Assembly (NCBI GenBank): GCA_024516035.1
Contig: CM044964.1
Span: 8,873,736-8,937,735, forward strand
Length of the DNA stretch: 64,000 nt
Source of the DNA: Bactericera cockerelli
Taxonomy: Eukaryota > Arthropoda > Insecta > Hemiptera > Triozidae
Reading direction: 5' to 3'
Positions 8,937 through 54,000 of this stretch are shown one piece after another. The position numbers and the translations under genes are program-made. The notes beneath the pieces were generated by a model. The model ran no database searches. It worked only from the letters and a program-made list of their open reading frames with translations, and was not told where the DNA came from. Each line of letters begins with the position of its first letter. Positions within the stretch are counted from its first letter, which is position 1.

Positions 8937-11911
8937 TTATGTGTTTTGGGGGTTTCTCTCGTTCTTTTCTTTCTCATTTATAATTTTTCTAATCATTTCT
9001 TCGATGTTTTTCCAGCTTTCAGGTGAACTTAGCATTTTTTCAATTATATTTTCCTCGCTCAATTGTCCTTCTATTCTGAGACATTTTACTCTTAGATAAT
9101 TGAACCTCTCGCAGAAGAAGACAGTATGCGCTGGATTATCTTTGATATGTGGACAGTATCTGCACTTTTCGTCCTTTGACTTTTTAATTTTGAATTGGAA
9201 GGTTCCAAAATGACCATGACCAGTCAAAAACTGGCATAGTTCATAGGAAACATCTCCATGTTTGCGATTTATCCAATCTTCCAAATTTTTAATCAGTGTT
9301 TTCGTCCATTTACCTTTATCACTATTTTGCCATTTGGTTTTCCACTTCTCTAAGAGTTCTTCATGTAAGTCTTTCTCTTTGCTCTCCCTTTCTTCTTTAT
9401 CTGTTTAGTTTTGGTGTATTTCAGAAATTTTGACTTTTTCTTCTACCATGAGTTCTATGGGCAATGAACCCGATATGACTTGGAGTGCCGCAGTAGATGA
9501 TGTTCTATATGCTCGACACAGTCTCATCATTACTTTTCTTTGGACTTTTTGGAGCAGGTTGGCATATTTCTTCATTTTCACTACAGCACCCCAGGCCGGT
9601 GCTCCATATAGCAACGTAGAGTAAACAACTGAAGCTAGTATCTTCCGTTTGCTGTTGTCTGGCCCTCTGAGATTTGGCATACACCTACTCAGCATTCCAA
9701 TGACTTTGTCCGACTTGGACACAACATATTTTATATGCTCGGACATCTTCAGGTTTTCATCAAGAACTACTCCAAGATATTTTGCAGACTTCTTGGAGGA
9801 TATTTGGAGACCTTCTATGTTGACATTTATTTGTCTACATTTCCTTTTGCTGACGAGGAGCACCACTTCTGTTTTTTGAGGAGCAACTTTGAGTTGAGCA
9901 TTTTCCATCCAATTGATGACGGAATCAATAGCGCTATTTGTGATGGACTCTATATCTTCTTTGTTTTTTCCTTCTGTAACAATTACAAGGTCGTCGGCAT
10001 AAGCGATCATTTTAGAGTAGGGTGGGAGTATTGTTTGCAGTACGGGATCGTAGTATATGTTCCAAAGGGTTGGCCCTACGACGGACCCTTGTGGAACTCC
10101 ACTGGAAAGATCACTTATGATTCCGTCATCGATCAGAAGCTTTCTGTCCTGGAAGTAGCTGCAAAGGATCCTCAAAAGGTAATTAGAGATTCCTTTTTTC
10201 TTTAACTCGGAAACTATGCCCTTCCAAGGCATTGAGTTGAAAGCGTTTTTGACGTCGATTAATGTCATTGCACATAGTTTCCTCCGTTTTTTTGCTTCTT
10301 CCGCTAGCTTCAGTACAGCTTGTAAAGCTCCCAATGTGGATTTACCCTCTCGGAAACCAAATTGTGATTCAGATAGATCACCTTTTACTTTGAGTTCACA
10401 CAGTATCCTGTTTTTTATCAGGTGTTCCATAACTTTTCCAAGGACGTTGAGCAAGCAGATAGGACGATACGTCATGTTGCCTTCGCTGTCATTTTTTCCT
10501 TTTTCCAGAAGGACCAACTTTGCAGTTTTCCAACCAACTGGAAAAATTCCAGTGTTCCAAATTTTGTTGAACATGTTTAAGCAGTAATTTGGGTCGAGTT
10601 CGAAGAACACTTTCAGTATTTCTGTACTGAGACCATCTGGTCCAGGAGCTTTTTTATTTTTAAGCTTATGGAAAGCCTCTACAACTTCATCCATGGTAAG
10701 TATGGGTATATCTTCTGCTCTTACTTCAATATGATCCCATATTATGGAAGCATGGCGGGAAATAATTTTTCTGCTTCTCTGACTTTTTCTTCTGGTTTTA
10801 ACGTTTTTTGTGGCAGAAACTTGAATTTTTTGCATACTATTTTGAATGCACTTCCCCACACATTTTTGTTCAAGTCTGCGCACAGCTTTTCCCAACATTT
10901 CTGTTTTGATGAGTTTATGGTCCATCTTAATTCTTCTTTCGATATATAATATTCTCTGCGGATTTTTTCTTTCTCTTCTACAGATATATATATTCTCCTA
11001 TTTATCCTTACCATTTTCCTCTTTAGTGAATGACACGTTTTCCTGCGTTCTGCTATATCCGAGTTCCACCAATAGAGAGGTCTCTTGTGTGATTTTCCAT
11101 TTTTTATACCGAACACTTCTTCACATACTTCCTGTATAAGATTTTTACATTCTTCAGGGTCTGGTTCTTTTCCTTGTATTTTTTCTTTAAGATGGTCTTG
11201 AAAGGTTTCCTTCTTTTTCTCATCATATCTCCATTTCTGTGTGTCTGTACTCATTACTGGGTTGCTTATGTTTACATTATTTTGAGTAAAAATTTCAAAA
11301 TAGATATTCTGATGGTCGCTGAGGTTTTCTTCATCAGATACACGCCATTTTTTTATCTTTCGAAAAAGTGATTTTGAACAGAGGGTGATGTCCACTATTG
11401 ATGAAGTACCTCCCCTCACAAAAGTGGGTGTATCTCCTTGGTTCAAAATTTCTAGTCCCATTTCAACTATCCATTCTGATAAAATATTTCCCCTTGAGTC
11501 TTCAACCCTAGAACCCCATTCTTGAGACTTAGCGTTAAAATCACCACCCAACAGAATATTATCATAAGATGTCTTCAGTATTTCACATTTCAGTTGTTCA
11601 AGGTAGTTGATGAAAGACTGATTTGGAATGTTCGGGGAAATATAACAGCTGAAAATTTGATATGTCTCAATTAGTACCCAGACAAAACCCTCTCCACGTC
11701 CAGAAGATTCAACTCTGAGATTTTTATCAGTAACTTTGATAACTGCATCATTTCTTTGGTCAGCAAACCACTCTAAACTATTGTTTATTACTTCTCTCTT
11801 GTTTGGTTCACTAAGTAGTAGAATTCCAATATTTTTATCCAGTACAGTTTTATTGACTAGATCATGACACGCCTTAGATAGGTGAGTATTTAGCTGTAAA
11901 AACTTAATCAT
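8937..11911 (-). pseudogene. LINE 2 ORF2: endonuclease, reverse transcriptase, C-terminal CCHC-type motif; two lesions
   Basis: The N-terminal endonuclease (from ATG 11911) begins MIKFLQLNTH, then has the LLSEPNK glutamate block, ILLGGDFNAKS, and SIVDITL and LSDHQNI near the end of the domain. The frame ends at a stop at 10742. The RT continues in another frame, with KKAPGPDGL, TYRPICLLNVLGK, LIDVKNAF, SGVPQGSVVGP and catalytic YADD. A single-base loss near 10755-10760 best explains the switch. The RT frame stops at a TAA (9407-9405) but continues in the same frame to 8937, where CRYCPHIKDNPAHTVFFC gives the R1-type cysteine-histidine motif. So there is one frameshift and one nonsense codon; otherwise it looks recent. 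Confidence 0.88.
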
Positions 11912-13643
11912 TATTAGCTTCTTTTTCCAAATCCTCTACCTCTGATAATTCTTTGTCTCTTTGGTAATTTTTGACTAGATTTTTTGTTTTATTCACTTGA
12001 TCTATCAGCTTTCTGAAAGATGGACAGGAGAAAGAGTCACACCTGTGACCCACCACTTCACACATGCTACAATACTTAACACTAGTGCATTCTTTTGCTA
12101 CATGTCCAGATTGTGTGCAATTTAAACACTTTTTTTCCAGTCTTGGTTCCCTGCATACATCAGAATGGTGTCCCATCTTCAAGCAATTGAAACAGCGTAC
12201 AAAGTCATACTTGGGTTTTACTCTGCATCGGGTCCATCCTATTTTGATATCCCCACTACTCAACAATAATTCAGCAGCTTTCATTGGCATGGAGATGGAA
12301 GCTACTTGAGTTCCTGATTTTGCAGTACGAAGGCTTCTCACAAACATATCCTTCTCCTTTGTTTCTATTTTGATACATTCCTCTATTTCCTTCTGATTGA
12401 TTGAGGCGTCAATATCAAGTATCATTAAATTGGTGTTTTTCTCGGTCACTCTTGCTTCCACTCCAAGGTTTTTAGATTCTATTGCCTTATAGAAAATCTC
12501 TGCTTTACCAGCTTCAGTTTCTATGATGACATTTTTGTCCCGGGTTAATTTAACTGTGTTAATGCCAACACCAAATTCATCTGGATCAATAGCTGCTCTA
12601 ATACTTCTCAGCGTTTCAGCATAGGTAGTAGCATTCGTTTTAATAATCACAGCCTCAGGTTTTTGGCCTTTTCTAATAAGCTGTGGTTTTTTCAACATTT
12701 TCTTTTGGGGGACAAAGAATTTGACTTCCCATTTTGTCTCAGGAAATAATATTTCCATGTTCTTTCTTATTAGATCTCTAGATTCAGGGTCACTTACTGC
12801 GACATTCAGTGCTTTAACATCCTCCATCAGATTCTCATTTTTGACTTTTGTCAGAATTTTCCTCAAGTCTTTCTCTCCTCTAGTCTCAAGCAAGTGAATT
12901 CTTTTTTTGTTCTTTTTCTTTTTGGTGCTGATCGTACTTTCAAGAAATTGTATTCTTTCTTCTTTCTCAGCTATATCCGTCACCATATCTTCAATCTCAG
13001 GGTACCTTGATTTTACTATGTTCATCAGTGGGCTGTCTTCATTTTTTTCATTTACAAATATCAGCACATCTCCCTCCTTTGTTGTCAAAGGATTTCCTTC
13101 TGTTTCTTTGGTCTTTTCAAAAGTTCTCTCTGGCCATGGTCTATTTACCAATTCCAAATATTGTTTTTCTTCGTATTTTATTGCTTCCTGTATACTAAGT
13201 TTTATGTTCTTACTTTCTTCCTCTTCTTGATCTAGCTCGGCAGAGCACCTGTCACAAAAATATCTCATAAGGCTGGCTGAGTTTTGTTCACATTTTTTAT
13301 TCACTATCAAAGAAGTGTTTGATGGCTGTATTCTCAACTTGTTTAACAAAGAACCCCCTAAAATTATCCTGTTGAGATCTTGAAGTTTTTCAGCATTCTC
13401 TTTAATATTTCTACGAATTTTTGTCCCGTCTCTGATTTGATTGTAAAGTGTTGTGATCAAGTCGCTCACTTTCCCTATATCTTCAACTATTTGGAGCTGT
13501 CCTTCTTCTATCTTATTTTCATGATGATTGGATGGTGATGCTTCAGTTGTATTATTTCCATTTTGAAGCGAATTTGAGAAAGTTGAGCTTTTATTAGTAT
13601 CTCCATCATCAACAGTAATGACTTCTTCCTTGTTTGTAACCAT
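11904..13643 (-). CDS. LINE 2 ORF1: Gag-like protein with three CCHC zinc knuckles
   Basis: Open for 579 codons from ATG 13643. The N-terminal half is charged and probably coiled coil. The C terminus carries three tandem knuckles: CFNCLKMGHHSDVC, CLNCTQSGHVAKEC and CSMCEVVGHRCDSFSC. This is the usual R1/TRAS-clade ORF1 product, which packages the element RNA and directs localisation. Its last 8 bp overlap the start of ORF2, suggesting coupled or reinitiating translation. No internal break is seen, unlike ORF2. Confidence 0.88.
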   Translation of the reverse strand: MVTNKEEVITVDDGDTNKSSTFSNSLQNGNNTTEASPSNHHENKIEEGQLQIVEDIGKVSDLITTLYNQIRDGTKIRRNIKENAEKLQDLNRIILGGSLLNKLRIQPSNTSLIVNKKCEQNSASLMRYFCDRCSAELDQEEEESKNIKLSIQEAIKYEEKQYLELVNRPWPERTFEKTKETEGNPLTTKEGDVLIFVNEKNEDSPLMNIVKSRYPEIEDMVTDIAEKEERIQFLESTISTKKKKNKKRIHLLETRGEKDLRKILTKVKNENLMEDVKALNVAVSDPESRDLIRKNMEILFPETKWEVKFFVPQKKMLKKPQLIRKGQKPEAVIIKTNATTYAETLRSIRAAIDPDEFGVGINTVKLTRDKNVIIETEAGKAEIFYKAIESKNLGVEARVTEKNTNLMILDIDASINQKEIEECIKIETKEKDMFVRSLRTAKSGTQVASISMPMKAAELLLSSGDIKIGWTRCRVKPKYDFVRCFNCLKMGHHSDVCREPRLEKKCLNCTQSGHVAKECTSVKYCSMCEVVGHRCDSFSCPSFRKLIDQVNKTKNLVKNYQRDKELSEVEDLEKEANND

Positions 13644-15667
13644 GACTGCTGTATATAGTGGAAAAACAGAAGGAAATTTAAAAAAAAAAAAAAAAAAAAA
13701 ATGGATATATGACTTTTAATTTTAATTATTATATAAATATATGGGTCATTAGCCTCTTTTGTGGTATAAAATACTCTTTTGTGGGTACTCTTTTACAAAT
13801 ATTTCAGGTTTAAAGGTAAAAGCAGAGAAAACGTATAAAAGGCTGTAACAAGTTTTAACCTCTTTTTGGGACTAGACCTCTTTTTTGGGTTCTTGGACCT
13901 CTTTATATAAAAAAGTTAAAATATAAAGTAAATCAATTTTGATATTTCTTTTAATTTTTAATTTTAATTATTATATAACTATATGGGTCAATAGCCTCTT
14001 TTGTGGTATAAAATACTCTTTTCGGGTATGTTTTAATGTATTAAAAATTACCTACTCTTTTACAAAAATTTCAGGTATTAAAGGTAAAATACAGAGAAAA
14101 ACGTATAAAAGGATGTTACAATAAGTTTTAACCTCTTTTGGAACTAGACCTTTTTTTTTTGGGTTCTTGGACCTCTTTTAAAAGTTACAAAAAATAAAAG
14201 TAAGGTAATTGGGTTATTACTTTTACTTAATATTATTATTATAATTATGCGGGTCAATAGCCTCTTTTGTGGGTATGTTTTAATGTACCTATGATTCAAT
14301 TAAATTAACTAATATTTTTAAAAAATTTCAGGTTAATAGGTAAAGTATGATAATAAGCACCTATCTTTTTTTTATATATGAACTTGTGTTTAGATAGGTA
14401 GATAAAAAGATTGGTTAACTATGTTGCACAAGTAATTACCTATATTTATTCACACAGTATTGGCTAAATCAAAGAAGTTGTCTTGGTCTATCTGGCTAAC
14501 CTCACTGAGATTCCATCAAAATAAAGATTTCAGTGTTTGAAGTAAAAATCTTACAGTACCTTCTCTAAAATGCTAGATGTGTAGGTAACCATGGAAAATT
14601 ATATGTCACAAAAAACACCAAATTATTAATTGAGAAACTATTAAAACAAAAGACAAAATGTATGAGTTGGAATATCTGTACCGGGATCTCCAGTTAGTAC
14701 TCAGCACTCAGGAACGCTTGAAATCCTCAGGAAACAGGTACCAGAAGTTCTCTTAGTTTCTTATCCAAAATTGTATCAGCCGGCAATCAGAAATAATCTT
14801 ATTGCAGAAAAACCGCAGCACTTTTTACTTTGAAATTGAAAATTAGGAGGGAAAAAATAACCCTAAGATTGTAAAAACCCTGAATTTGAAAAAACCCTCG
14901 AGTCGTTTGAGTTTGTATTTTGAAAACAACGCGCACAAAATTGGAGTTGGGCACAGAAACGGCACGTGCACCTCACCCTACAGGGTTGGTGTTGACCTTG
15001 AAATAGCTTGCAAGCCGGTCTCTGGATTGATGCAGATGTGAAATTTATGGATGCGGATTCTTAGAAATTATTCGAAAGGGAATGAAATTGCACTGATAAC
15101 GAATTTAATATTAAGGTTTAATTTTAAGTTAACGTCTATGCGTATGCGATTTTAAATACTAGAATTATGAAAACTTATAGCACTGTGAAACATTGTTTTC
15201 AGATCGAATTAAAAATCTCTTTCGAAGCAGCTATTTGCTGACAATTTTTAAGAATAATTAAGAGAAACTATATTTTATTGATATCTTTGGTCAGTTTTAA
15301 ATCACTAATAATGATTTAATTAGGTTTTCACTAGGATTACTACAGATATAAGAGATTTAAACTGTATTGTACTTGTGATTTAACTTTATAATTCTAAATA
15401 TTTTAGATTACCACGAGTTAGTTTCAGAATGAAAAAAAAATTGTTTTTTAATAGTTTTTAGACTAACTTTTTGGTTCTAATCTACATTAAATCACTTCTG
15501 AAAACACATTTTGAAACACGGATATCACTGGATATATCTATTTAAACCAGATAGTTACTAATTCACTTCCGAAAAACCAAAATCAAATTTTTGTTGAAAA
15601 AATCAAAATCAAAAACACGGAGCTCATTTACACACGTCCTGCACGCTTCAGATCCTTCGCGCGAGTC
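13644..15667 (-). other. LINE 2 5'UTR, ~2 kb
   Basis: This lies between the ORF1 start and the outer target duplication at 15668. It contains an A run (13681-13702), the tandem repeats listed separately, and otherwise AT-rich sequence. Long repeat-bearing 5'UTRs often act as internal promoters in LINEs; no promoter motif is clear to me here. Confidence 0.65.
13710..14365 (-). repeat. Tandem ~245-270-bp repeats in LINE 2 5'UTR, about 2.6 copies
   Basis: The string ATGGGTCA(T/A)TAGCCTCTTTT recurs at about 13741 and 13981 and, with one change, at about 14248. Each is followed by shared segments (ACTCTTTTACAAA, TTTCAGGT, ACCTCTTTTGG and similar). The third unit is truncated. Such 5'UTR monomers resemble promoter monomers in other LINEs. 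Confidence 0.75.
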
Positions 15668-24987: not shown

Positions 24988-25635
24988 TTTATTATATAAT
25001 AGATAATAATGATATCTTCCCCACATTGTGAACAGAGCACCACCAGGAAGAGTGTATCTGATTAAAAAAAAAAGAGGAAAAAAAAGAAGAAATAAAAAAA
25101 ATCTACTTGTCATATTTCATTGATTATATTTACTCCCTACCCACGAGACAAAGGAAGTATCCTTTAGTGTGGGTAGGTGAGCATCACTAGTAGAATTAGA
25201 ATATAAGTAATGTTCTTACATTTTAATCATTATATTATATTATTAATTATGTTCATGTATGTAACATTTAATACAATAAACGATGCTGATATTTACAATT
25301 ACAAAAAAAAAAAAAAAAAAAAAAATTACACCCTTTCGGGACTACTTCACACCCTCGAGATGAGATAATCTAGATATTAATTATATTAAATCTAATCAGG
25401 GGAAAGCACAAAGCTATATTCACCCGAGTGATAAAATGATAAAAAAAAATAATTTTAATAAATCATTCCGTCAGTCAGTGTGATATCATTTTATTAATCC
25501 CCAAGTCATCCAATTCAGTCGCTCTCTATTTCCTCTGACCATGCAAATCATATCATAGATTGCTAAGGTGGGCGGGTCAGTCCCACACCGGCAGATTCTT
25601 AGTGACACCTCCTCAAGTCTTCACCTATTGAATTC
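24988..25635. other. AT-rich intergenic stretch
   Basis: Poly(A) run 25302-25324, possibly the tail of a degraded retroelement ending at 25301 (preceded by TTTAATACAATAAACGATG). Nothing else recognised. Confidence 0.45.
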
Positions 25636-27936: not shown

Positions 27937-28133
27937 TACCACTTAGACGACCGGCATGGTTTTTCGTGAATTCTCTTGTGGGACCGGCGATAATGCGGCT
28001 ATACCGACCCCGTGTACCACCGGTGGTACACCCGGTCCATTCCGTACGAACGTGCGTGTACCACCGGTGGTACACCCGGTCCATTCCGTACGAACGTGCG
28101 TGTACCACCGGTGGTACACCCGGTCGTCTAAGT
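27937..28133. mobile_element. piggyBac-like MITE, palindrome subfamily, three palindromes
   Basis: Ends ACTTAGACGACCGG / CCGGTCGTCTAAGT. The interior holds the 20-bp perfect palindrome GTGTACCACCGGTGGTACAC three times at a 44-bp period (28012, 28056, 28100). The TTAA flanks seen in the copies at 35630 and 53712 are mutated here. The repeating peptide frames across it are by-products. Confidence 0.8.
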
Positions 28134-32071: not shown

Positions 32072-32255
32072 CTCGGTGTGTGTGTGTGTGTGTGTCTGCT
32101 TCATATGGTGTGTGGGTGAGTGTGTGTGTCTGCTCTATAAGGTGTGTGGGTGAGGGTGTTTATGTGTGTCTGCTCTATAAGGTGTGTGGGTGAGAGTGTG
32201 TGTGTCTGGTCTATAAGGTGTGTGGGTGAGGGTGCGTGTGTGAGTGTCTGAGAGA
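32072..32255. repeat. GT-rich minisatellite, ~50-bp units
   Basis: GTGTGTGGGTGAG recurs four times, most copies separated by TGTGTGTCTGCTCTATAAG-like spacers. It lies in the sequence upstream of the first visible RhoL exon. Confidence 0.75.
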
Positions 32256-32973: not shown

Positions 32974-33208
32974 GACTCCGATCCCTCCCAGCCGATCATT
33001 CCCGAAGAGACCACCTGACTTCGGCCATGCTCGGGGACTCACACACGAAGAAGAAGAAGACGTTTGGGGCCGCCCTCGACACGCAAAGCCGGGGCCGCAA
33101 GAACAGGGCCCTCAAAATAACGGCCGTGGGCGACGGTATGGTGGGCAAGACGTGTTTGCTCATCACCTACACCAACAAGGTGTTTCCCTTGGAGTATGTT
33201 CCTACAGT
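32974..33208 (+). CDS. RhoL: RhoL exon with start codon (53 nt leader plus 182 nt coding)
   Basis: Acceptor TTCTCAG ends at 32973. ATG at 33027 is in a fair context (GGCC before it). Encodes the N-terminal basic extension, P-loop and switch I up to VPTV. It ends ..CCTACAGT before donor GTAAGT at 33209. The last 32 nt (33177-33208) are the first unit of the donor array. Confidence 0.85.
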
Positions 33209-36200
33209 GTAAGTTTCAACAAAACATCAAGGTGTTTCCCTTGGAGTATGTTCCTACAGTGTAAGTTTCAACAAAACAAGGTGTTTCCCTTGGAGTATGT
33301 TCCTACAGTGTAAGTTTCAACAAAACAAGGTGTTTCCCTTGGAGTATGTTCCTACAGTGTAAGTTTCAACAAAACATCAAGGTGTTTCCCTTCGAGTATG
33401 TTCCTACAGTGTAAGTTTCAACAAAACATCAAGGTGTTTCCCTTGGAGTATGTTCCTACAGTGTAAGTTTCAACAAAACATCAAGGTGTTTCCCTTGGAG
33501 TATGTTCCTACAGTGTAAGTTTCAACAAAACATCAAGGTGTTTCCCTTGGAGTATGTTCCTACAGTGTAAGTTTCAACAAAACATCAAGGTGTTTCCCTT
33601 GGAGTATGTTCCTACAGTGTAAGTTTCAACAAAACATCAAGGTGTTTCCCTTGGAGTATGTTCCTACAGTGTAAGTTTCAACAAAACATCAAGGTGTTTC
33701 CCTTGGAGTATGTTCCTACAGTGTAAGTTTCAACGAAACAAGGTGTTTCCCTTGGAGTATGTTCCTACAGTGTAAGTTTCAACGATAATCGACCTTTACT
33801 CAAGCCGTGTTTTTTTTTTTGTTTTTTTGTTTTGGAAAAAAAAATCCAGGTTTGGTACCTGTTTCCATTTTCTTCCAAGTTTAGCTTCCCCAGTATTCGT
33901 GAAAGAAAAATGCGTTTCGGTACTTTTAAAGCTAAACAATGGACTTAACCTATAATAAGAATTTTATAAATCACTTTTGGTTCACCAAACTGGAAGAAGA
34001 TTTTTCCTCTTCCAAAAGAAACATGACTTTCTTCCAGTTCGTCCATTTTATTCTATTTTAATCCACTTTGGTTAGAAAGAAAAGTACAGCTAATGTCTTT
34101 TCACTTCCGATAAATTTCTAATATTAGAAATCGGCAGTTTGTGTTCGTTTTTGTAAAGATATAATAGAAAAATATACTCCGATATTATATCTCTGGACAT
34201 GTCATAATCTCTTGAGCAACTTTGGTTTTGTGTCTGTCTGTCGGAATGTTTGTTACTTTGCATTCCTCACAACTTCTTCCCCTTCTCCAGCAAAATATTG
34301 ATTTTTACCACAGATTTTACACTTATTTCTGCAATAGCATAGATAGTAACTCTTGCAGAGGTACTAGGTACTTTTTCTTAATTTTTCCGGGACGATATTG
34401 ATTTTTACCACAGATTCTAAAATTAATTCGTCAAATTAGGTACTGATTTTTCTTCATTTTTTTCGGGACGATATTGATTTTTACCACAGATTCTAAAATT
34501 AATTCGTCCAATTAGGTACTGATTTTTCTTCATTTTTTTCGGGACGATATTAAATTTACCACAGATTCCACAATTTATTCTCAAATTAGGTACTGATTCT
34601 TCTCCCTTTGCCCTCAGATTCGACAATTTCTCCGGCACAATAGCAGTGGACAGCCAGGTGTATGACATCACCCTGTGGGACACCGCGGGACAGGAAGACT
34701 ACGAGAGACTGAGGCCCATGTCCTACCCTCATGTAAGTGTGACCCATATATGTCCCATGTCCTACCCTCATGTAAGTGTGACCCATATATGTCCCATGTC
34801 CTACCCTCACGTAAGTGTGACCCATGTCCTACCCTCATGTAAGTGTGACCCATATATGTCCCATGTCCTACCCTCATGTAAGTGTGACCCATGTCCTACC
34901 CTCATGTAAGTGTGACCATGTCCTACCCTCATGTAAGTGTGACCCATATATGTCCCATGCCCTACCCTCATGTAAGTGTGACCCATATATGTCCCATGTC
35001 CTACCCTCATGTAAGTGTGACCCATGTCCTACCCTCATGTAAGTGTGACCCATATATGTCCCATGTCATACCCTCATGTAAGTGTGTCCCATGTCCCATG
35101 CCTTACCCTCATGTAAGTGTGACCCATGTCCTACCCTCAAAGAAGTCAATAACTTGGTACGACTGTCATTGGCAGTACAGCGTAGAAATACCTCGAGCCT
35201 GGTAGGCACCATGTGTCGGGAGAAGAACGATGACATATTTGTTATGTAAAGATTTCAATAAATTGATACTTATTATGTACCGGTAGGTCAGTGGTAAAGG
35301 CGGCACTCTGTGAATCCACAGGTTCCAGAGGTCGTGGGTTCGAAACCCAGCCGGGACATGACAAGTTATCCTTCCATTTGGGATTTTTACCACATAATAA
35401 TTATGTCCTTATCGGGCATTATAAATAAGGCGATATTATTATTATTATATTAGTACGAGTACATGTAGTTGTAAATGTTTTTTTTTTTCCCCCAGACGGA
35501 CTGTTTCATCCTCTGTTACTCTGTGAGTAGCCGGCCCTCCTTCGAGAATATAGAAAGCAAGTGGTTCCCCGAGATACGGCACCATTGTCCCAAAGTACCC
35601 ATCATCTTAGTCGGTAAGTAAATCAGTGATTAACACGTAGACGACCGGGTGTACCACCGGTGGTACACGCACGTTCGTACGGAATGGACCGGGTGTACCA
35701 CCGGTGCTACACAGGGTCGGATAGCCGTATTATCGCCGGTCCCACAAGAGAATTCACGAAAAACCATGCCGGTCGTCTAAGTGTTAAACTTGAAATGTAT
35801 GTGTGGCCAACAGTTGGAATTTCAACCAATTACAACAGTGCACTAGTATAGTCAGCTGATAGTGTCCACTTAGATTAAATCTAATTCTGTTTCATAATAT
35901 CGCCTTTTAAGTTCACGTAATCATATTTGTGTTAATCACAATTACTCAAACTCACTTTATGAAATAGGTTTTGTTTTAACTTGGGACTTGAACTACCGAC
36001 CTTCAAGTTACAAGTCCGCCGCCTTACCGATCAAGCTACTGAGGTCGGTCCTGCTGTATTCAACAAGCCCTATAGCAAACTGGCCCAAAAATGCCTTCGA
36101 TTAATAATTTGGTATCCTTTTTTCCCCCCAGCAACCAAAGCCGATCTACGAGACACAACGGAACCGCCCGCCGAGTCACAAAACACCGAGCGTGGTGAGA

Positions 36201-36442
36201 AGTTCCAACACGCCAAGTCCACGCTGAGCCGAATCTCTCACCTCGGCAAGTCGGGTGGTGCGTCGAACGCCAAGAGCCTGGTCAGCGCGCGGGCAGGAAA
36301 GAAAATGAAGCGAAAAATAGGTGCGGTCGCGTTCCTGGAGTGCTCAGCTATGAAGAATGAAGGTCTGGAGGAGGTGTTCGAAGCCGCTGTGAGAAGCGCT
36401 GTCAAGAGGAAGAGTAAGCACTGCTGTTGTGCAGTGCAGTGA
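33027..36442 (+). CDS. RhoL: Rho-family small GTPase, RhoL-type (four visible coding exons)
   Basis: Spliced exons 33027-33208, 34618-34732, 35496-35613 and 36132-36442 sum to 726 nt (241 aa plus TGA), with all phases agreeing and GT/AG at each intron. Motifs: P-loop GDGMVGKT (35-42; Met where Rac and Cdc42 have Ala, as in Drosophila RhoL), effector Thr60 in EYVPTVFDNF, DTAGQE (82-87), TKAD (140-143), ECSA, and prenylation box CAVQ (238-241) after a basic stretch. Rho GTPases switch actin and adhesion programmes at membranes; in Drosophila RhoL acts in haemocyte migration. Compared with Drosophila RhoL it is ~50 residues longer, from a basic N terminus and a ~40-residue Ser/Ala/Lys-rich insert after the G4 motif. 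Gly before the TKxD motif is Ala (codon formed across intron 3). The frame is open upstream of ATG 33027 to the acceptor at 32973, so an upstream exon could add residues. Confidence 0.9.
33177..33784 (+). repeat. Array of 12 copies of the RhoL exon 1/intron 1 junction
   Basis: Units of 52 or 49 bp (last one shorter), each 32 nt of exon end plus ~17-20 nt of intron start, repeat with almost no change (one C for G at about 33393, one G for A in the last two). Every unit keeps GTAAGT; donors at 33209, 33261, 33310, 33359, 33411, 33463, 33515, 33567, 33619, 33671, 33723 and 33772. In the exon-1 frame each donor reads GTG TAA, so using any donor but the first puts a stop codon in the message. Confidence 0.95.
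33785..34298 (+). other. RhoL intron 1 middle
   Basis: AT-rich with a T run (33810-33831). It has short complementary CTTCCA/TGGAAG motifs, but no repeat family or gene was recognised. Confidence 0.5.
34299..34617 (+). repeat. Array of acceptor-like units at the 3' end of RhoL intron 1
   Basis: TACTGATT plus a pyrimidine tract plus CAG/ATT recurs with ~75-bp period: TACTGAT at 34441, 34517 and 34591; CAG ends at 34313, 34413, 34489 and 34564, then the real acceptor at 34617. The upstream CAGs are all preceded by TTTACCA and followed by ATT, as the true exon is (ATTCGAC). Using the units at 34413 or 34489 would give V-F-stop (GT/A TTC TAA), and 34564 also stops soon after. Confidence 0.75.
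34618..34732 (+). CDS. RhoL: RhoL exon 2
   Basis: 115 nt, acceptor CCCTCAG, donor GTAAGT at 34733, ends in phase 0. Encodes FDNF through [20 protein letters not shown], that is switch I end, the G3 DTAGQ motif and switch II. Its last 18 nt form the exonic part of the second donor array. Confidence 0.9.
34715..35145 (+). repeat. Array of 12 copies of the RhoL exon 2/intron 2 junction plus one without a donor
   Basis: Units of 39, 27-28 or 35 bp carry CCTACCCTCAT (or CAC) plus GTAAGTGTG. GTAAGT donors at 34733, 34772, 34811, 34839, 34878, 34906, 34933, 34972, 35011, 35039, 35078 and 35113; a thirteenth unit at 35131 lacks it. The short units lack the ATATATGTCCC segment. Donors 2 and 3 are 39 and 78 nt beyond donor 1, in frame and without stops, adding 13 or 26 residues ([13 protein letters not shown] unit) after switch II. 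Later donors shift frame or pass a stop. Confidence 0.95.
35278..35440 (+). mobile_element. SINE family D copy in RhoL intron 2
   Basis: CCGGTAGGTCAGTGGTAAAG then CGTGGGTTCGAAACCCAGCC, A/B-box-like, with body ATTTGGGATTTTTACCACAT and a TATTATTATT tail. It ends about 55 bp before exon 3. Confidence 0.8.
35496..35613 (+). CDS. RhoL: RhoL exon 3
   Basis: 118 nt, acceptor after a T/C tract (CCCCCAG), donor GTAAGT at 35614. Encodes [20 protein letters not shown] through VPIILV, the core beta-4/alpha-3/beta-5 region. No donor duplication here, but a TTAA MITE starts 17 bp into the intron. Confidence 0.9.
35630..35787. mobile_element. piggyBac-like MITE, palindrome subfamily, two palindromes
   Basis: TTAACACGTAGACGACCGG to the inverted CCGGTCGTCTAAGTGTTAA, with TTAA on both sides (35630-35633 and 35784-35787). 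158 bp, with one perfect and one imperfect copy of the CCACCGGTGG-centred palindrome. Opposite orientation to the copies at 27937 and 53712. Confidence 0.88.
35921..36049 (-). mobile_element. SINE family A copy in RhoL intron 3
   Basis: The - strand head CCGACCTCAGTAGCTTGATC is at 36049; the body is slightly shortened. It ends 82 bp before exon 4. Confidence 0.75.
36132..36442 (+). CDS. RhoL: RhoL exon 4 and stop codon
   Basis: 311 nt, acceptor CCCCCCAG ending at 36131, stop TGA 36440-36442. Encodes TKADLRD, a ~40-residue Ser/Ala/Lys-rich insert, [20 protein letters not shown], and the basic tail [12 protein letters not shown]. The three adjacent cysteines suggest palmitoylation next to the prenylated cysteine; this is inference. 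Confidence 0.88.
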
Positions 36443-36700
36443 GACCATCTCAGTAACCATCACAAGTTTCTGTGTCTGAAACCCAGGCTGGGTGAGGGAC
36501 ATTTGAGAAGTGCCGTGAAGAGGAAGAGTAAACTCTGCTGTTGTGCAGTGCAGTGAGACCATCTCAGTAACCATCACAAGTTTCTGTGTCTGAATTCCGT
36601 ACTTGGAAAATTTCCGGTCCAACCCAGGCTGGGTGAGGTACATTTGAGAAGTGCCGTGAAGAGGAAGAGTAAACTCTGCTTCAGTTCAGTATAGGGAGAG
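36391..36700 (+). repeat. Tandem copies of the RhoL C-terminal coding end in its 3'UTR
   Basis: Unit 1 (36391-36504) contains the last 52 coding nt plus 62 nt of 3'UTR. Unit 2 (36505-36645) repeats GAGAAGTGCCGTGAAGAGGA through the CTGCTGTTGTGCAGTGCAGT end and the following UTR. Unit 3 (from 36646) is partial. All copies after the first lie behind the stop codon. GCACTGCTGTTGTGCAGTGC forms a small hairpin in unit 1. Confidence 0.9.
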
Positions 36701-37600
36701 TCATTTACCTACTCAGTCTCTATAAATAACAACATGTGTTTACATTTTGTACTTGAAAAATTCCGGTCCATCTCAGGCTGGGTGAGGATGTCACTCTGAG
36801 AGTAGCACGCCTGGTAAAATATAATTAGTTAAGGTAGGTATTGAGACTATTGTGAAAATATTAACTGTCCCACCAAATACAAAAACAAGCTTCATCATCT
36901 CCTCAGGTTAACCTTTAACTTCTGTTAATCATGTAATACCTAATTTTCAGTGGAATGAAAATTTCTTCTAATTTTATGTCATAATTTTTCATTTACATAA
37001 AAATGTCTATTTTTTTATGTTATAATTTTCAGTCAGTAGATTTTAAGTCTTCCCTGGTAATATATTTACAATCATGACCGTTTGTAATCCAGAGGGCGGG
37101 ATTAATAGATGAAATTCAAGACTCAAGTTTGAGTCTGAGTTATGAGTAACTCACAAGTTTGCAAGATGGAGTAATTTACTTAATGAAGTGCACTGCTAGT
37201 CAAGTTTTTCCTATCTTACACAGAACGCAATCCGTGACTTAGCGCCACAGAGGTATTACCAAAACGTCTATTAATCCGAAATAAGACTCTGAGGGTTAGG
37301 TGGTAGAAAATGCTTTGAGCATGAACCTCGGCTGGTGGCTACCTTCCACTAAAGAGTGTTATTATTATGATAAGTATTATCATATGGCTTGCAAGTTCTG
37401 GTCAAATCGTGCACTATAAATAATGCGATATTATTATTAAACCAAAAAATAAATAAACAATAATAATAAAACTTATGACTACCAGAAGACTCAAGCCTTT
37501 CTTATCTATCAATTCCTCCCCTGAATAAACCCATTTGTACATAAACCATTCATTGCGTTGCGCAGAATTAAAAAAAAAAAAGAAAATCACCAAATGCTTT
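36701..37600 (+). other. RhoL 3'UTR / downstream region
   Basis: Candidate polyadenylation signals AATAAA occur at about 37448-37453 and 37523-37528. Includes a possible small MITE (37094-37281, ends resembling GGATTAATAGACG inverted) and a SINE E body fragment (37275-37370). The transcript end cannot be fixed from sequence. Confidence 0.5.
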
Positions 37601-38299: not shown

Positions 38300-38881
38300 A
38301 ATCCTGGTTCATCTCTCACACTGCCTGGTTTACCACCTCATGTTAATCACTTGCCTTTATTACTGTGGTCCTCATGAAGACAAAAAAAATATATATCTTA
38401 CCACCTGGTTTCTCACTTAATGATCTATCTCTCTCTGGTTTCTCACTTCCTGATTTATCTCTCTCTGGTTTCTCACGTCCTGATCTATCTCTCTCTGGTT
38501 TCTCGGCCTCTGTTTTACCTCCTCCCGGTCTATCTCCTCCTGATTTCTCACCTCCTGGTCTATCTCCTTCTTTACCTCTATCTGATTTCTCACTTTCTGG
38601 TTTACCTCCATCTGATATATTACCTTTGGTTCATCTCCTCCTGTTTTACCTCCTCCCGCTCTATCTCTTTCTGGTTTCTCGCCTCCTGCTCTATCTCCTT
38701 CTTTACCTCTCTCTGATTTCTCACTTTCTGGTTTACCTCCATCTGGTTCATCTCCCTCTGATATATTACCTCCTGGTTCATCTCTCCTGTTTTACCACCT
38801 CCCGCTCTATCTCTTTCTGGTTTCTCGCCTCCCGGTCTATCTCCTTCTGGTTTCTCGCCTCCCGCTCTATCTCCTCCTGGC
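38300..38881 (-). repeat. ~30-bp TC-rich minisatellite in the NOG1 3'UTR
   Basis: CTGGTTTCTCACTTCCTGAT-like units recur every ~30 bp (starts at 38407, 38437, 38467, 38497 and on), running up to the NOG1 stop codon. On the gene strand it is GA-rich. The peptide frames across it on either strand are repeat by-products. On the gene strand an AATAAA at about 38361-38356 lies within the array's far end. Confidence 0.85.
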
Positions 38882-39054
38882 TTATCGCCGGTCCGTCTTG
38901 CCGATGCCCCGCTTGCCGGAGAACAGATGCTTGGGCTTCTTGGTCCCGATGAAGCGGTCGCCCTCCCCCTTCAGTCCCCACTTGGACACCTTCTTCGCGA
39001 TGGCCTTGTGAGCCACCTTCTTGACGCGGGCCAGGGTCTGAGGGTCGCGGAGTC
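38882..39054 (-). CDS. NOG1: NOG1 exon 10 (last) with stop codon
   Basis: 173 nt, acceptor CCCCCAG, TAA at 38884-38882. Encodes [20 protein letters not shown] through the conserved basic end [18 protein letters not shown], which carries nucleolar targeting and rRNA-binding lysines in the family. The minisatellite begins right after the stop. Confidence 0.95.
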
Positions 39055-42000: not shown

Positions 42001-45000
42001 GCAATCCGTGACTGAGCGCCACAGAGGTATTAAAAAAGCGTCTTTTAATTCCACCCTTACTGTGAATTCCTAATCTACTGGGTTGTCAATAGTCACAGTA
42101 TAAAATTCAACCAGTTAGGTATGTCATTAAATATTTTTAATATACATAAAAATATAATATATGTTATATCCCAGGAGACCAAGGCAATCGAGCATCGATC
42201 ACCAACGTTTCACCCTGAAAAGGATCCGAGGGGAAGAAAAGAGGGTGACTCGGGGAACGAGTAACTGCTCTCTGGATACCCCTCGTCAGTCCGTTGCTAT
42301 ATCTCGTGAAGTATTGATATAGCCAGGGAGTTGCGTGTCTTGCGTCTACCAGTTGAAATTACGTGTTTGTGAATTAGCTATCAATCATATCATCACCATA
42401 ATATTATCTTTTATCAAATCTTTGTAAATAAAATAAATCTTTTAAAAACTCTTATTCTGTGTTACTCTATTTTCTAATTTACCATCAATGAACCCTTAGA
42501 GGACGGGGAAATACCAGAGGAGAGCCCGTACCACGGGTCTCCCTCATCAGAAGTGGGATATCAACCGCACCGATCTGAACGTGGATACCGAACAATATCG
42601 GAGAACAGCCAAACACACAGTTCCCAGGATGGAAACTCAACCCCGCGGAGTAACTATGCTCAAAATTCATCAGACCCTACTGTAACTACTGCCGGATCCC
42701 AGGACATCTCATTTACGATTGCCGCAAGAGGACTTCAACCCTCATCTCGAAGCCCAGCCGAGCCACTGACACCAGACGTGACCGTTTCTCTTCAAGTCAA
42801 CCACAAGAGCGAGAGAAGTCTGTCACCTGCTTTCACTGCCGTGAGGTGGGACACTACTCTACTAAGTGCTCCCAGAAGAAATAAGCTATCGATCGTCCAC
42901 CTGTCAAGGAAGTGAGACTGTGCGCTGTCAATCCTCATGGCCAACTTACACATAAGGGTGAGATGTTTCAGTTTATTTTCGATAGTGGTTCAGAATGTTC
43001 CCTATTGACTTCTAGTACTTCCTCAGAATTCGAGGGAAAGTGTCACTATAACACAGTGAATCTAATAGGATTAGGTAAATCCCTTGTATCTTGTAGCAAA
43101 CAAGTGCAATCCTTAGTGTCAATTAATGACAACGAGTTTGAAATTTTATTTCACGTTGCCCCTGATGCAATCATGAGCGAACCTATTGTAATAGGGCGCG
43201 AAATCCTTCAAGACAATTTCACAATGGAAATAGATAAGAACCATTGTATTCTTAAGAAAAAGGGGAATAACGGTTCGAATCCGCTAGAAATTCCCTGTGA
43301 CAATGAGACTACACCGCAGTCTCTGGATCCCATTGAACTTGACCTATTAACCGAGTTGTGTAAAGAAAGTGAGAGTTATATTCAGGAGTGTGGGTCAGGT
43401 AAACAAAACCACACAGATCCTTGCGAAAAGTCAATGAACTCAGTGTCTATTTACGACTCTATTGTAACGAGCTTAACTCCAAATGATAGAGTAAAATTAT
43501 TTTCAATCCTTGAGAAATACGAACCTCATTTTATTGATGGTATCCCTAAGACCAGAATTAAAACAGGTGAAATGACCATCAGACTAAAAGATCCGTCCAT
43601 TATCAACTCTCAGCGTCCCTATAGATTAGGCGACGAGAAACGCGAAGTAGTACGTAAGCTAGTAGGAGAACTGCTCGAGGCGAATGTTATTCAGCCTAGC
43701 CGTTCGCCTTACGCAAACCCAGCTTTTCCTGTAGCCAAGAAAACCGGAGGACACCGCCTCTGTGTAGATTATAGAGCTTTAAATGCCAATACAGTATCTG
43801 AGAAATTCCCGTTACCTCTTATTCAGGACCAAATAGCCAGGTTAAAAGGCGCTAATTTTTTCTCTTCCCTAGACATGGCTAGTGGATACCACCAAGTCCC
43901 AATTCACCCCGATTCGGTCGAAAAGACCTCTTTCATTACTTATCATGGAACTTGGGAGTACTTAGCTGTACCTTTTGACCTGAAAAATGCCGGAAGCGTT
44001 TTTCAGAGGGCCGTGTTAGAAGCGCTAGGGGAGATAGCCCACGACTATGTTGTCGTATTCCTAGACGATATTTTAATCGTAGCTGATAGTAAAGAACATG
44101 CATTGAGTAGACTAGATGCCGTTCTGAAGGTGAACTCAATGACAATTCTGATGTAGAACTTGGTCGTATTCGATCATTAGCTCATGCTGAAATTGAGAAA
44201 TCTGCAGCATACAACAAATCTTTATTTGATAAGGGTAAAGCTAAAGTGAAACCTTTCAGTGTAGGCGATTTAGTACTCTTGAAGAACGAAGAAAGAAACC
44301 AAAATAAACTAGATCCTAAGTACAAAGGTTCCTTTAAAATAACTCGAGTCCTTGAAAACGACCGATACGAAGTCACATCTATTGATGGGAGAAGACAATA
44401 CAAATACCCCCATGATCGCATGAGATCAATGCCCAGGCTCGATGAAATTAACCCTTCTGTTATCCTGAGTGACAGTGATACAGACGAAGCGGTTAGCGAC
44501 GAGGCATTGATCGAGTAGTTTGCAACGTAGAATAGTTTGTTTTGTTTCCCTTGATTTGACTGCTTTATAACAAAAGTCTAAATTGTATTAACTGTCCCTT
44601 AATTTGCCTAAATTTGGCGAGTATAGATCGAAAACAAGAATACACTGATGACTGACATTGTAGGAGATCGTTCTACGTGGATGAGTGTGCTCTTGACGGG
44701 TAATCTCGAGCAGGACGCTCAGTTATGGGATTACTCTGGAGCAGATCACTCGGAAGCAGACAGAGTTCGATTATTCCCAACGAAGTGTCTTGTCCATTCA
44801 GTAAAAACTCTTAGTTCGATCCATACCTCGCAACTAGATTCATAAATCATTGTCACCAAGCAACTCATGGGTTAACTTCTCATTTGATAGAAAACAGCTT
44901 TCTCTTTTCGACCCCTCTATAATGAAACTAAAGCAAACTACGTTGCAAACTAACCCCATGCGAAGACAATAAAGAAAAGGGTACCGTACCCAATTTCGCA

Positions 45001-48000
45001 GTCTCACACTGAAAAAGATTGCTTTCTACTACGCAGTAAGCGCAGTACCACATTTATGAGGTAGTAAACCCAAATGTCGGCTCCTTTTGTCAAATCTTGA
45101 TGATCCCTTTTTTCTTCAAATTGCTCAAGCCCGAACGGCTTTAAAAATGATCTTTATCATCATCTAAATTTGTTTTCTCAAGATTCATTTCTAAATTATT
45201 GAAAAGTCAGCAAGACCAATTACAGGTCAGGAAGGACCGAGCGTAGTCTTACTTAGATCAAGTATCAAACTACAATTTCGGACATCTAAAGTTGAATGTC
45301 CCTCCCCGCAGCTCCTACAAACACAAACACCGACGCGAGTAGCCTCGGTTATGCAGGAATACTACTTGACATTGTGGGTGGGAAACCCAGAGTAGTAGCT
45401 TACTTTAGCAAGCGCACTACACCTGATGAGTCCAAATACCATTCCTATGAACTAGAAACCTTAGCCGTAGTAAAATCAATCCAGCATTACAATAATTATC
45501 TTCAGGGTCGTCAGTTTAAAGTTGTAACTGACTGCTTATCCTTAAAAGCTACTCAGAATAAGAAGGACATTATTCCACGTGTCCAACGTTGGTGGACTTT
45601 CCTTCAATGTTACGATTTCGTCATTGAGTACAGGAAGGCCGAGCGGATGGCTCATGTAGACTTTCTTAGTAGGAATCCCATTGAAAATTACCAAAACCCA
45701 CCTTCACTCGAACAAGACAAGAACACCGACACGACACAACCTACAAACCACCAAACATCTGATCTTTCCGTGACATCCAAAGCTAGACCACATGGTAAAA
45801 AGAACAATCGTCCTAGACCCCAAAACATCGTAAATCACAAAAAGGTAAACCTCACTCAGATATCTTCGGAGTGGTTACTCACTGAACAAAACAAAGACCC
45901 CGACATTATAAACATTAGGGATCAGCTTCGAAATTCTGAAATAGACGAAGAAATACGTAATACCTACGAGATCAGAGCAGGTATCCTCTGTAGAAAAATT
46001 CAGCGAAACGGAAGTACCCGTTGTCTTCCTATTGTACCTAACGCTTTAAAGTGAGCAGTAGTCAACAATGTACACAATTCCTTGTTCCACATGAGTTGGG
46101 ACAAAACTGTAGAAACTTTGTATAACCATTACTGGTTTGAAAGAATGTCCAAGTTCACAAGAAAATTCGTAGAAAATTGTCTTACCTGTAAGGTGAACAA
46201 ATCTGACTCAGGTGCCAAACAAATACAATTACATCCCATACCCAAAACCAACATTCCGTGGCACACCGTTCATCTCGACACGACTGGCAAACTCAGTGGG
46301 AAAAACGACGCAAAAGAATACCTCTTTGTGTTCATTGACGGTTTTACTAAATACACTCTACTAACACTCACTAAGAACTTAGACGCCGAGTCCGCAATAC
46401 GTGCTCTTTCCCACACCGTAAATCTGTTTGGGCCACCTTCCCTTTTGATCGTTGATCAAGGCCGATCTTTCGCCAACAAAAAGTTCAAAGACTACTGTGC
46501 TCAACAACAGATAAGTTTGCACTTCATTGCAACCGGTGCTTGTCGCGCCAATGGTCAGGTCGAGCGTCAAATGAGAACGTTGAAAAATATGGTAACCGTA
46601 GCCAAATCCAAAGAAAATAAAACATGGCAAGAAGCCATAGGAGACGTTCAATTAGCAATTAACACTGCTCCCCATAGAGTCACCAAAAGCTCCCCTATGG
46701 AACTTACGTTTGGGCGCGTATCTCGCCCTAGAAGTCTCATTGTTGCTGAAAGCGACGCTGAAATTGTCGAAATAAATCTTGATCAAGTTAGGCAACAAGC
46801 CGTTACCGAAATAGAAAAATCAGCTACTTACAATAAAACCCGATTCGATAAAGGCAAGGCAAAGATAGTCCCCTTTAGTGTTGGTGACCTAGTTTTACTG
46901 AAAAACGAAGAACGAAACCAAACAAAACTCGATCCGAAATACAAAGGTCCTTTCAAAATCATAACAATTTTAGAAAACGATAGGTACGAAATAACTTCAA
47001 TTGATGGCCGGAGGAAGTATAAGTATCCTCATGACCGCTTGCGTATTGTTCCTGATCTATCTGATATTAACCCATCACTGGTCTTAAGTGATGAGGAAAT
47101 TTTATCCGACGAAGAATTGGTGTAAGAAGACAAGTAAAGGAAAGCTCTAGAGCGAGCGTATCACTGAGGAATGGTCGTATCATTTTGTTTTGTGCAAGTT
47201 CACACGGTTTTAGAGTTGGTGCTCAGATGAAACCGTTCTGAACAGTTTGTACTCGCATTTTGGTTTCGGCCCACCCTCGCTTTGTGTTATCGCAGACTTA
47301 AGCAGAGCAGAATTCCTTAGTACAGTCTTATTACCATTCTCGTCTCCTTCTAGTAAATCTTAAAATGTTAATACCTAAATATTAATAAAAAAAAAAAAAT
47401 TGAAACACAACACCCTACTCTAATAAAAAGGACCCCACAAAAAGTAAAACTAATAAAACAGATTCTTGTCACTACCCTCCTACCCACCCAAAAAAATCCC
47501 CCTTTTGAATCTTTGTATCATACCGTCTTCAAAACAAACTATAGCTTGCATAATATAGCATTTCATTATTTTCATTCATTCGTTGTGTTGGTTCCGTGTC
47601 GATCTTCTGGGAACTGCAGGAAGTAGTTCGGATAAGAGATTTTGGGAACAGACAATACAACACAATGCTGAACAGCAATTCCGACTCCGAAATCTTTTGA
47701 GTTATTAGAAACAATGAAAAGCGCATTCTTAATTTTGTAATTACGTAGCAACATTATAGTTACAAAGTGTTGTACTTTGTACCTACTAACCTGACGGGTA
47801 GTCAGTTAGTAATATCGAACGGGACGGACGTTCAGAAAACAAATCCATACCTATTGTCACAAGGTTATGTAAAGTACCAAACTATATCTTGGATGCTAAA
47901 ACCATCCCTCCCTGTGCTAATGATATAATCTATTCTTATTCTACCGATTGCCGCACAACTATTTTTAAATGTGCAGGACTATCTTTCAAGATCCTTACTG

Positions 48001-51000: not shown

Positions 51001-54000
51001 TCTGATAAAAAATGTACCATCACCTTACAAATCTCTGCACAAAATAGAATTGGAGAGAGTGTAGCAAGGTGGAGGTGGTACTTAGTGTAGCATTTCATAT
51101 CCCCCTGAAGAGAGTGCATGGTGGAGCACTGCTCAGGTCTACTGGGAATGCTGGAGAAGATATTTCAATCTCAATATTGTTCTTTTTTATTTATAGCCTT
51201 TCTTAGTTATTGTAGGTATTTTTAAATTTAAAATTTTAATAAAAAAAAGGTTGGGTGGAAGAGATTTCCATGGGCAATAAGCCCTCCCTTTATATATTTA
51301 GTTTATCTTTTTTTCTTGTTCTCAATTTTGTATTTTAATTTTAATCATTACTTGTTTGTACATATTATGTCCTATTAATAAAATAATTCAATAATAATAA
51401 TAATATGTGTGTAGAACAAAATTTTATGTAAATATAGTTGAATTTTACACCAGTGAATGACATTATTTAGACGGACTGACCATAGGCAATAAATCCGCCT
51501 TTTTTATTTATTTATTTACACTATTAATGGGGCATATTATTGTGATTATTATTATTATTATTTTTACACTATTAATTGGACATATTATATACAAAACAAA
51601 TAATTACAAATTAATATACAATATAAGAGAAGAAAAAAAAAAAAACTAAAGGGAGGGGTTATTGCCTTTGGCAATCTCTTCCACCCAACCCTTTATATAT
51701 TTTATCTGTTTAGACTGTAAGAGTAAAGGATTTTTTGAAATCATATTCTCACAGGTGAACTATCAGAATTTGAAAACAATAAAAAATGTACCATCACCTT
51801 ACAAATCTCTGCACAAAATTGAATTGTAGAGAGTGTAGCAAGGTGGAGGTAGCACTTAGTGTAGCATTTCATATCCCCCTGAAGAGAATGCATGGTGGAG
51901 CACTGCTCAGGTCTACTGGGAATGCTGGAGAATATTCTTGGGTGAGGGTAAATATTAGCTAATGTATCAAAACATACACCCTCATCTACATTCCTCAGGT
52001 CGGTAATATTGTAGTGACATAAAAAAATAATATTGAGTTACCTGTTTCAATGTATTTTTTACTATCAATCTGATAAAAAATGTACCTTCACCTTACAAAT
52101 CTCTGCACAAAATTGAATTGGAGAGAGCTAGGAAGGTGGAGGTTATAGTTAGTGTAGCATTTCATATCCCCCTGAAGAGAATGCATGGTGGAGCACTGCT
52201 CAGGTCTACTGGGAATGCTGGAGAATATTCTTGGGTGAGGTTAAATATTAGCTAATGTATCTAAAACATACACCCTGATCTACACTAATCAGGTTGGTAA
52301 TAATGTAGTGACATAAAAAAATAAATATTGGGTTACCTGTTTCAATGTATTTTTTACTATCTAACTGATAAAAAATGTACCTTCACCTTACAAATCTCTA
52401 CAAAAAATTGAATTGGAGAGAGCTAGCAAGATGGAGGTGGTACTTAGTGTAGCATTTCATATCCCCCTGAAGAGAGTGCATGGTGGAGCACTGCTCAGGT
52501 CTACTGGGAATGCTGGACAACTCAATGGCAAGGTGAAATGATTACCTTCAGTCTATATATTTCAATGTAATAGTGAAATTCAACCTTATGATATTATAAA
52601 AAAAGTTATCATATTTGTGTTAAACACTTTCTCACAACTACTTAAACTCGCTGTACTAAATCTATGTTGAAACCAGGACTCGAACCACCGACCTCCAGGT
52701 TACAAGTTCGCCGCCTTATCGATCAAGCTACTGAGGTCGGATTGAAATTTAACCCTTATCTTTTAGAGCTGCTTTCACTACAAAAGAGAAAAAGTTTAAC
52801 CAAAATATTCCTCAACTGATGAGTGATTTTCACAATTTCCAACACTCCAATTGGTATTCTGATTTTAGTTGGTTCTTTTTGTAAGGACGTTACAATCACT
52901 TTGACTTGAACCAACTATAATGTGGTACCACTGATACTGACTGAATTTACAAGAAGTTAAAAAAAAAAGAAAAAAATATATTGTAAGGTACCAGCACATT
53001 TTAAAACAAATCTGTATTTATATAACTAACTACATACATACATATTTTAAAATAAAATAAAAATATTCGGGGCGAAATTAATAGACGTTTTTCTAATACC
53101 TCTGTGGCGAAGTCTCGATTTGCGTACTGACTACTGATGGGGGATACCAGGGCCAAGTCATGACTTAAGACCTCGATTTTGTCTACTAATTTCGCCGACC
53201 TCCGTGGCTCAGTGGTTAAGAGCGTTGGTTACTGACCCGGAGGTTGCGGGTTCAAATCCCGGCCGGAGCGGAAATTTCCGACCGAAATTTTCCGTTTCCG
53301 GAATGGGATGGATGTAAAGGTAAAGTGTCCTGAAGTAATGCGAAAACGGTTCCGGGGCACAGTTTCCTTAACACTTTGAGTCCATGAATACCATATATGA
53401 CTCTCAGCTGACATTTCACAAAGGACATGAGTACCATATATAATTATGACTCTCACCCGAAATTTGACTGTGGACATGAGTACTCTATATGGTATTCACG
53501 ACCTTCCTTTACTTTGAAGACATGAGCAGGGCACTCTCTATGGTAATCGTTTCTATGTGTTTCTCATAGGAAATAGGTTCTAGTGTTCCTTGGGAGCAAT
53601 GTATGAGTGTTGGGTTCTGAAATTAGTGGTCCTTCGTGCTCACTCGCCGATCACAGCTCTGGGACTCAAATTGTTAAAAAAAAAAAAAAAAATCGCCCTT
53701 AATGTTTACATTTAACACTTAGACGACCGGCATGGTTTTTCGTGAATTCTCTTGTGGGACCGGCGATAATACGGCTAGCCGACCCCGTGTACCACCGATG
53801 GTACACCCGGTCCATTCCGTACGAACGTGCGTGTACCACCGGTGGTACACCCGGTCCATTCCGTACGAACGTGCGTGTACCACCGGTGGTACACCCGGTC
53901 CATTCCGTACGAACGTACGTGTACCACCGGTGGTACACCCGGTCGTCTACGTGTTAAAAATGTGAAGAAAAAAAAACCACTCACCCTCTCTGTTCTTGGA

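Follow-up and report, generated by a model that had tools for sequence, protein, structure and literature searches.

RhoL of the psyllid Bactericera cockerelli carries, at the 3' edges of two successive coding exons, tandem arrays in which the end of the exon and the adjoining 5' splice site are repeated, with twelve GTAAGT donors in each array. Analysis of the window (the whole stretch of 64,000 nucleotides at positions 8,873,736 to 8,937,735 of contig CM044964.1, assembly GCA_024516035.1), of a second assembled copy of the locus and of donor-like words across the genome suggests that both arrays are probably recurrent, fast-changing minisatellites at exon 3' edges, tolerated since splicing would use the first donor.

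Two donor arrays at exon ends of RhoL

The RhoL gene is intact in the window on the forward strand: its four coding exons (Table 1) join into an open frame of 241 aa that scores as Ras (E=2e-47), is 54-61% identical to eight aligned hemipteran relatives and contains an insert common to the psyllids Cacopsylla and Cyamophila. The best 120 of the 4261 RhoL matches listed include no protein or transcript of B. cockerelli itself. Upstream of the first coding exon lies a GT-rich array (32076-32242, units of 34-40 nt, with ATAAGGTGTGTGGGTGAG) that may be near a 5'UTR donor and has a counterpart in the second copy. RhoL is neighboured on the minus strand by NOG1, pieces of which are 71% identical to Diaphorina citri; the hit numbers WDU94_002024 (RhoL) and WDU94_002025 (NOG1) suggest the same neighbourhood in Cyamophila. 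Repeat finding and self-comparison of the window placed none of the nine NOG1 donors in an array. Right after the NOG1 stop codon (minus strand) a degenerate array of 15-42 nt repeats begins (38405-38889); it covers about 480 bp in the window, and its counterpart at C10:8820833-8821998, in the second copy, about 1.17 kb. Elsewhere in the window, a 44-nt palindrome-like unit (CGTGTACCACCGGTGGTACACCCGGTCC...) is dispersed at 28011-28125, 53786-53944 and about 35640-35720, twice as short arrays, and inspection of the open reading frame list by eye gave reverse-transcriptase-like and gag-like retroelement frames at 42478-47125 and 8937-13715.

The original prediction placed twelve tandem copies on the first exon/intron boundary, all with GTAAGT, and two methods agree on this: Tandem Repeats Finder reports 33176-33783 with period 52, 11.9 copies, 97% matches and a score of 1139, and an exact count finds GTAAGT at 33209, 33261, 33310, 33359, 33411, 33463, 33515, 33567, 33619, 33671, 33723 and 33772. 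Array 1 is thus a tandem repeat of minisatellite size (period 49-52) whose unit holds a 5' splice site and whose first unit is the real RhoL boundary. Units are 52 nt long where the unit junction has ATC and 49 nt where it lacks it; the one base change in the array turns TTGG into TTCG in the copy that precedes donor 33411. A GA variant follows the last two donors, and the final unit continues into intron sequence that is unique. This variant matches a simple joint of intron to exon sequence, which suggests that array 1 grew from one founding duplication. The further prediction that only donor 1 yields the full protein was confirmed by a frame test: in the predicted splice products of the eleven later donors the protein ends after 61 aa in every case, because GTG TAA is included in frame. 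A recent expansion, also proposed earlier, still holds in view of the donor count, the unit variants and the differing donor numbers in the second copy, and chance origin of the arrays is ruled out by the Tandem Repeats Finder scores and the motif controls presented below.

The next intron begins with a second array, overlooked in the earlier analysis. Exon 2 ends in ...SYPH, followed by GTAAGT, and it is this boundary that array 2 repeats. The predicted inserts from its second and third donors, 39 and 78 nt long, fall at SYPH/TDCF, a point that by Rac1 numbering we take to lie one residue away from the insertion point of RAC1B; donors 4-12 give a frameshift or a stop in the frame test. The donor is intact in all 12 full units of the window copy and in 31 of 33 units of the second copy. 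Two of 41 substitutions in array 2 fall in GTAAGT, which makes up 6 of 28 unit sites; since 17 of the 41 fall at one unit position, the copies lack independence and the donor-less partial unit at the end is outside the count, conservation is not clearly higher in the donors than elsewhere in the unit, and we make no claim of selection keeping them.

Table 1. Positions in the window of the RhoL coding exons, donor arrays and associated features.
Feature	Position	Strand	Basis
Array 1: 12 copies, each 32 nt of exon end plus 17-20 nt of intron start	33177..33784	+	Tandem Repeats Finder and exact donor count
Donor 1 of intron 1: sole array 1 donor predicted to give full-length RhoL	33209..33214	+	Frame test of all 12 donors
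Donors 2-12 of array 1: each brings an in-frame stop	33261..33777	+	Frame test
Array 2: 12 GTAAGT, unit length 27-28, 35 or 39 nt (exon end of 18 nt, remainder intron start), closed by a partial, donor-less unit	34715..35139	+	Repeat finding, donor count
Donors 2 and 3 of array 2 (34772, 34811): in frame, +13 and +26 aa, predicted RhoL of 254 and 267 aa	34772..34816	+	Frame test
Coding part of the first RhoL coding exon, with CCTACAGT at its end, next to donor 1	33027..33208	+	Open frame and RhoL alignment
RhoL exon 2, ends SYPH	34618..34732	+	Frame and alignment
RhoL exon 3	35496..35613	+	Frame and alignment
RhoL last coding exon	36132..36442	+	Frame and Ras score
End of RhoL CDS and following sequence, duplicated in pieces (stop codon included)	36390..36787	+	Self-comparison

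A second assembled copy of the locus

The locus is assembled a second time 92 kb away (C10:8805669-8868779); its colinearity with the window starts at 25328 and extends past the window end. Pieces longer than 1 kb are 88.6-97.4% identical, and the pieces above 250 bases, counting those from the arrays that overlap, average 91.6%. The second copy is a 79-kb contig between two gaps of 100 N, in which homology reaches the right end, inside a tandem repeat; the left 16 kb contain no colinear piece above 250 bases. Judged from these features it is probably the other haplotype, left unpurged, which is the likeliest reading; the alternative is a segmental duplication. Ras-family matches elsewhere often come in pairs of equal or similar score, some 60-105 kb apart and sometimes farther (for example C8:15201469 with C8:15287099 and C1:8823409 with C1:8929147), and these pairs, recognized by score and position, suggest that haplotypes are retained in the assembly.

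Arrays 1 and 2 hold 12 and 12 donors in the window versus 2 and 31 in the second copy, a difference that fits alleles and paralogues alike, and the two copies also have different unit orders and unit variants. The RhoL coding sequences differ by 10 synonymous and 0 non-synonymous changes in 240 aligned codons, plus a one-codon indel. All ten codon differences being synonymous, both copies of RhoL look functional, and near-identity of the protein in the face of such unequal donor numbers indicates that it is kept whatever the length of the arrays.

Donor arrays elsewhere in the genome

Arrays were counted across the 565.0 Mb genome as three motifs spaced 14-44 bases apart, with the reversed motif as control; matches overlap within arrays, so that the counts are weighted by array length. 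By this measure the donor words AGGTAAGT and AGGTGAGT give 3018 and 6203 triple arrays versus 214 and 665 for their reversed forms, and at an exact period of 37 nt AGGTGAGT gives 264 versus 1, with at least seven clusters up to C3:14.4 Mb among the matches listed. The control words behave differently: AGCTGAGT, in which the donor GT is changed to CT, gives 255 versus 224 reversed, AGGTCAGT 407 versus 139, the permuted word GTAAGGTA 232 versus 1022, and the acceptor-like word TTTTCAGG 139 versus 145, reversed or permuted words overall ranging from 26 to 1022 matches. A second acceptor word, TTGCAGGT (152 versus 26 reversed), was dropped as a control because CAG/GT is also a donor. Abundance of the donor words is not supported as the cause of their excess in a small sample of 203 kb, where as single words they occur 8 versus 6 and 8 versus 13 times reversed, and TTTTCAGG 14 versus 17. 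Among 20 sampled acceptors one has the exact TTTTCAGG, and among 32 sampled donors two have the exact AGGTRAGT (by eye, some boundaries being unsure); thus the acceptor word does not seem to be a much rarer form of its site.

Clusters, counted by hand among the matches listed with places within 5 kb merged, point in the same direction on a smaller scale. The first 5.1-5.2 Mb of C1 contain three clusters of AGGTAAGT and five of AGGTGAGT. Among the matches listed for the controls, GTAAGGTA forms 21 clusters up to C8:27.4 Mb, TTTTCAGG 24 up to C11:10.8 Mb, AGGTCAGT 10 up to C3:46.3 Mb and AGCTGAGT 7 in the first 57 Mb of C1, so that the density of donor clusters is several-fold to more than tenfold higher, although the donor side is measured on one short stretch. 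In that same stretch AGGTCAGT, AGCTGAGT and GTAAGGTA have one cluster each and TTTTCAGG has none; the fair local contrast is therefore 8 clusters for two donor words versus 3 for four control words, smaller than the whole-genome totals imply.

Six of these eight donor clusters end an open frame preceded by an AG acceptor; they represent five distinct exons, as C1:491392 and C1:1305091 show the same exon. Homology identifies one as an exon of AREL1, a HECT ubiquitin ligase (E=7.4e-6 over 43 residues), with 57 copies of AGGTAAGT, and another as the PDZ exon of APBA/X11 (E=1.6e-31). Of the remaining two clusters, the array at C1:8217 has before it a frame that is short and weak, a 20-residue exon piece nearby giving no match in a homology search, and that at C1:5179993-5181845 has no coding exon in the preceding 500 nt. 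A gene on C10 adjoining the window provides a further case: behind its exon end ...RTNVSTSVIS the second copy has about 44 units of 23 nt (Tandem Repeats Finder, 72% matches; 15 exact GGTGAGT), whereas the window copy has one GGTGAGT followed by an insertion and at most an apparent unit remnant. Donor arrays can thus differ strongly between copies in this gene as well. This exon matches weakly in PDB (E=0.027); a Pfam search of four peptides (L071/L072, L074, L075 and the C10 exon) gave no match, nor did a homology search with L075. In all, arrays of unrelated sequence stand at seven genes (RhoL, the C10 gene, AREL1, APBA/X11 and three more), which rules out an oddity of RhoL alone.

Boundary-spanning duplications were also sought within 300 nt on each side of 20 exons hand-picked from 151 Ras-family matches. 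One spans a donor (82 nt, 85%) and one an acceptor (105 nt, 97%); tandem duplication thus affects both exon edges, and what sets the donors apart is their long arrays. Arrays resembling repeated 3' splice sites, with pyrimidines, CAG and a readable frame, were noted by eye at C5:30496207, C6:33335963, C4:14045642 and C4:50329131.

Origin and significance of the arrays

The explanation that we regard as probable begins with a short tandem duplication across the 3' edge of an exon, by which the exon's final bases, together with the 5' splice site, would become a repeat unit. The first donor would stay on the exon and the added copies would end up in the intron; if splicing takes the exon-attached first donor, the normal protein results and the array is free to grow and shrink. 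Arrays would persist because their copies sit on the intron side and the first donor is used. An added upstream AG at an acceptor may be used first, and a duplication inside an exon breaks the frame. Extra acceptors could accordingly displace the true acceptor, and this asymmetry would explain why donor arrays outnumber acceptor arrays. The later donors of array 1 would be at most minor decoys, their products open to nonsense-mediated decay, and donors 2 and 3 of array 2 could yield in-frame isoforms. Of the three functional options raised earlier for array 1, that of a neutral minisatellite seeded at a splice site remains the best fit, but as an isolated event it does not stand, donor-word arrays being over-represented genome-wide. 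Unequal survival alone would leave unexplained why donors exceed neutral sites with similar words, and in addition either GC-rich exon edges would have to duplicate more often or a process linked to donors would have to act. Several observations count against the minisatellite explanation: the local contrast is 8 clusters versus 3 and the larger counts are weighted by array length; one of the eight clusters has no visible exon and another a weak frame only; the single donor and single acceptor duplication in 20 Ras-family exons amount to no donor bias at that sample size; no NOG1 donor lies in an array; and some acceptor-like arrays exist.

A process acting on DNA at donors, such as breakage and repair coupled to transcription or to U1 and R-loops, might instead amplify the neighbourhoods of 5' splice sites in this genome. 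The single base change from AGGTGAGT to AGCTGAGT, which takes the matches from 6203 to 255, ties the excess to the intact donor word, the acceptor word has no excess over its reverse, and the arrays at the seven genes are unrelated in sequence. We nevertheless consider such a process unlikely, as much of the bias could come from unequal survival combined with GC-rich exon edges, a boundary-spanning duplication was also found at 1 of 20 sampled acceptors, the cluster contrast is modest where all words are comparable (8 for two donor words, 3 for four controls), and the mechanism is hypothetical. Misassembly, whether of the array lengths or of the second copy as a whole, appears very improbable: the gap-bounded contig whose homology runs to its right end in a tandem repeat would suit it, as it does an unpurged haplotype, but both copies hold both arrays with distinct unit orders and variants, and unrelated genes also carry such arrays.

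Regulation by the arrays is decidedly improbable in our judgement. On this view U1 would be titrated or stalled by the extra donors, and an adjustable fraction of the transcripts would go to nonsense-mediated decay (array 1), where donors 2-12 all give an early stop, or to Rac1b-like isoforms (array 2), where donors 2 and 3 add residues in frame. The RAC1B insert, between codons 75 and 76 behind switch II, is described as making the GTPase fast cycling (PMC6356296); the boundary is nearly the same and the insert is likewise in frame in a Rho-family GTPase, but in RAC1B it is a separate 57-nt exon whereas in psyllid RhoL it would arise hypothetically by donor choice. Human IFI6, in which a repeat at a splice border is reported to have two downstream units used as donors, giving three mRNAs (PMC4526556, PMC2572611), is the single-locus precedent for donor arrays, since there too a tandem repeat is tied to the splice border and its units contain or serve as donors. 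It differs in being one human locus with reported use of downstream donors, whereas the psyllid arrays occupy two RhoL introns as well as several further genes, are mostly frame-breaking and are known from sequence alone. The number of donors, so unequal between the two copies, does not look maintained, and conservation of the array 2 donors does not clearly exceed that of the remaining unit; both count against regulation.

The minisatellite explanation also has a likeness to intron gain by tandem genomic duplication (PMC4974935, PMC3443670), in which a short tandem duplication likewise includes splice-site sequence, except that in the psyllid the intron pre-exists and the copies extend into it. 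The RhoL arrays do not appear to be new introns in a former exon, as relatives align to the frame spliced at donor 1 with no insert, and the added copies are intronic. In the literature searched, which left most subscription papers outside, we found no report of a genome-wide class of donor arrays, weak evidence of novelty, nor, in the same literature, of a donor-linked mutation process connecting splicing or transcription to genome change.

Experiments on how one of several equivalent 5' splice sites is chosen usually rely on engineered duplicates. The psyllid arrays, rows of 2 to 57 donors (RhoL, AREL1) that are nearly identical, flanks included, and differ mainly in distance from the exon, provide a natural test of donor choice, to which two assembled copies of one locus with different donor numbers add. 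It is possible, if doubtful, that amplification targeted to 5' splice sites has turned hundreds of exon 3' edges in psyllid genomes into arrays, each with 3 to about 60 nearly identical donors, of which only the first would be read, amounting to hundreds of natural experiments. Where exons end in such arrays, the annotation of genes and the mapping of short reads would be unreliable, and a donor-linked mutation process, if true, would link splicing or transcription to change in the genome.
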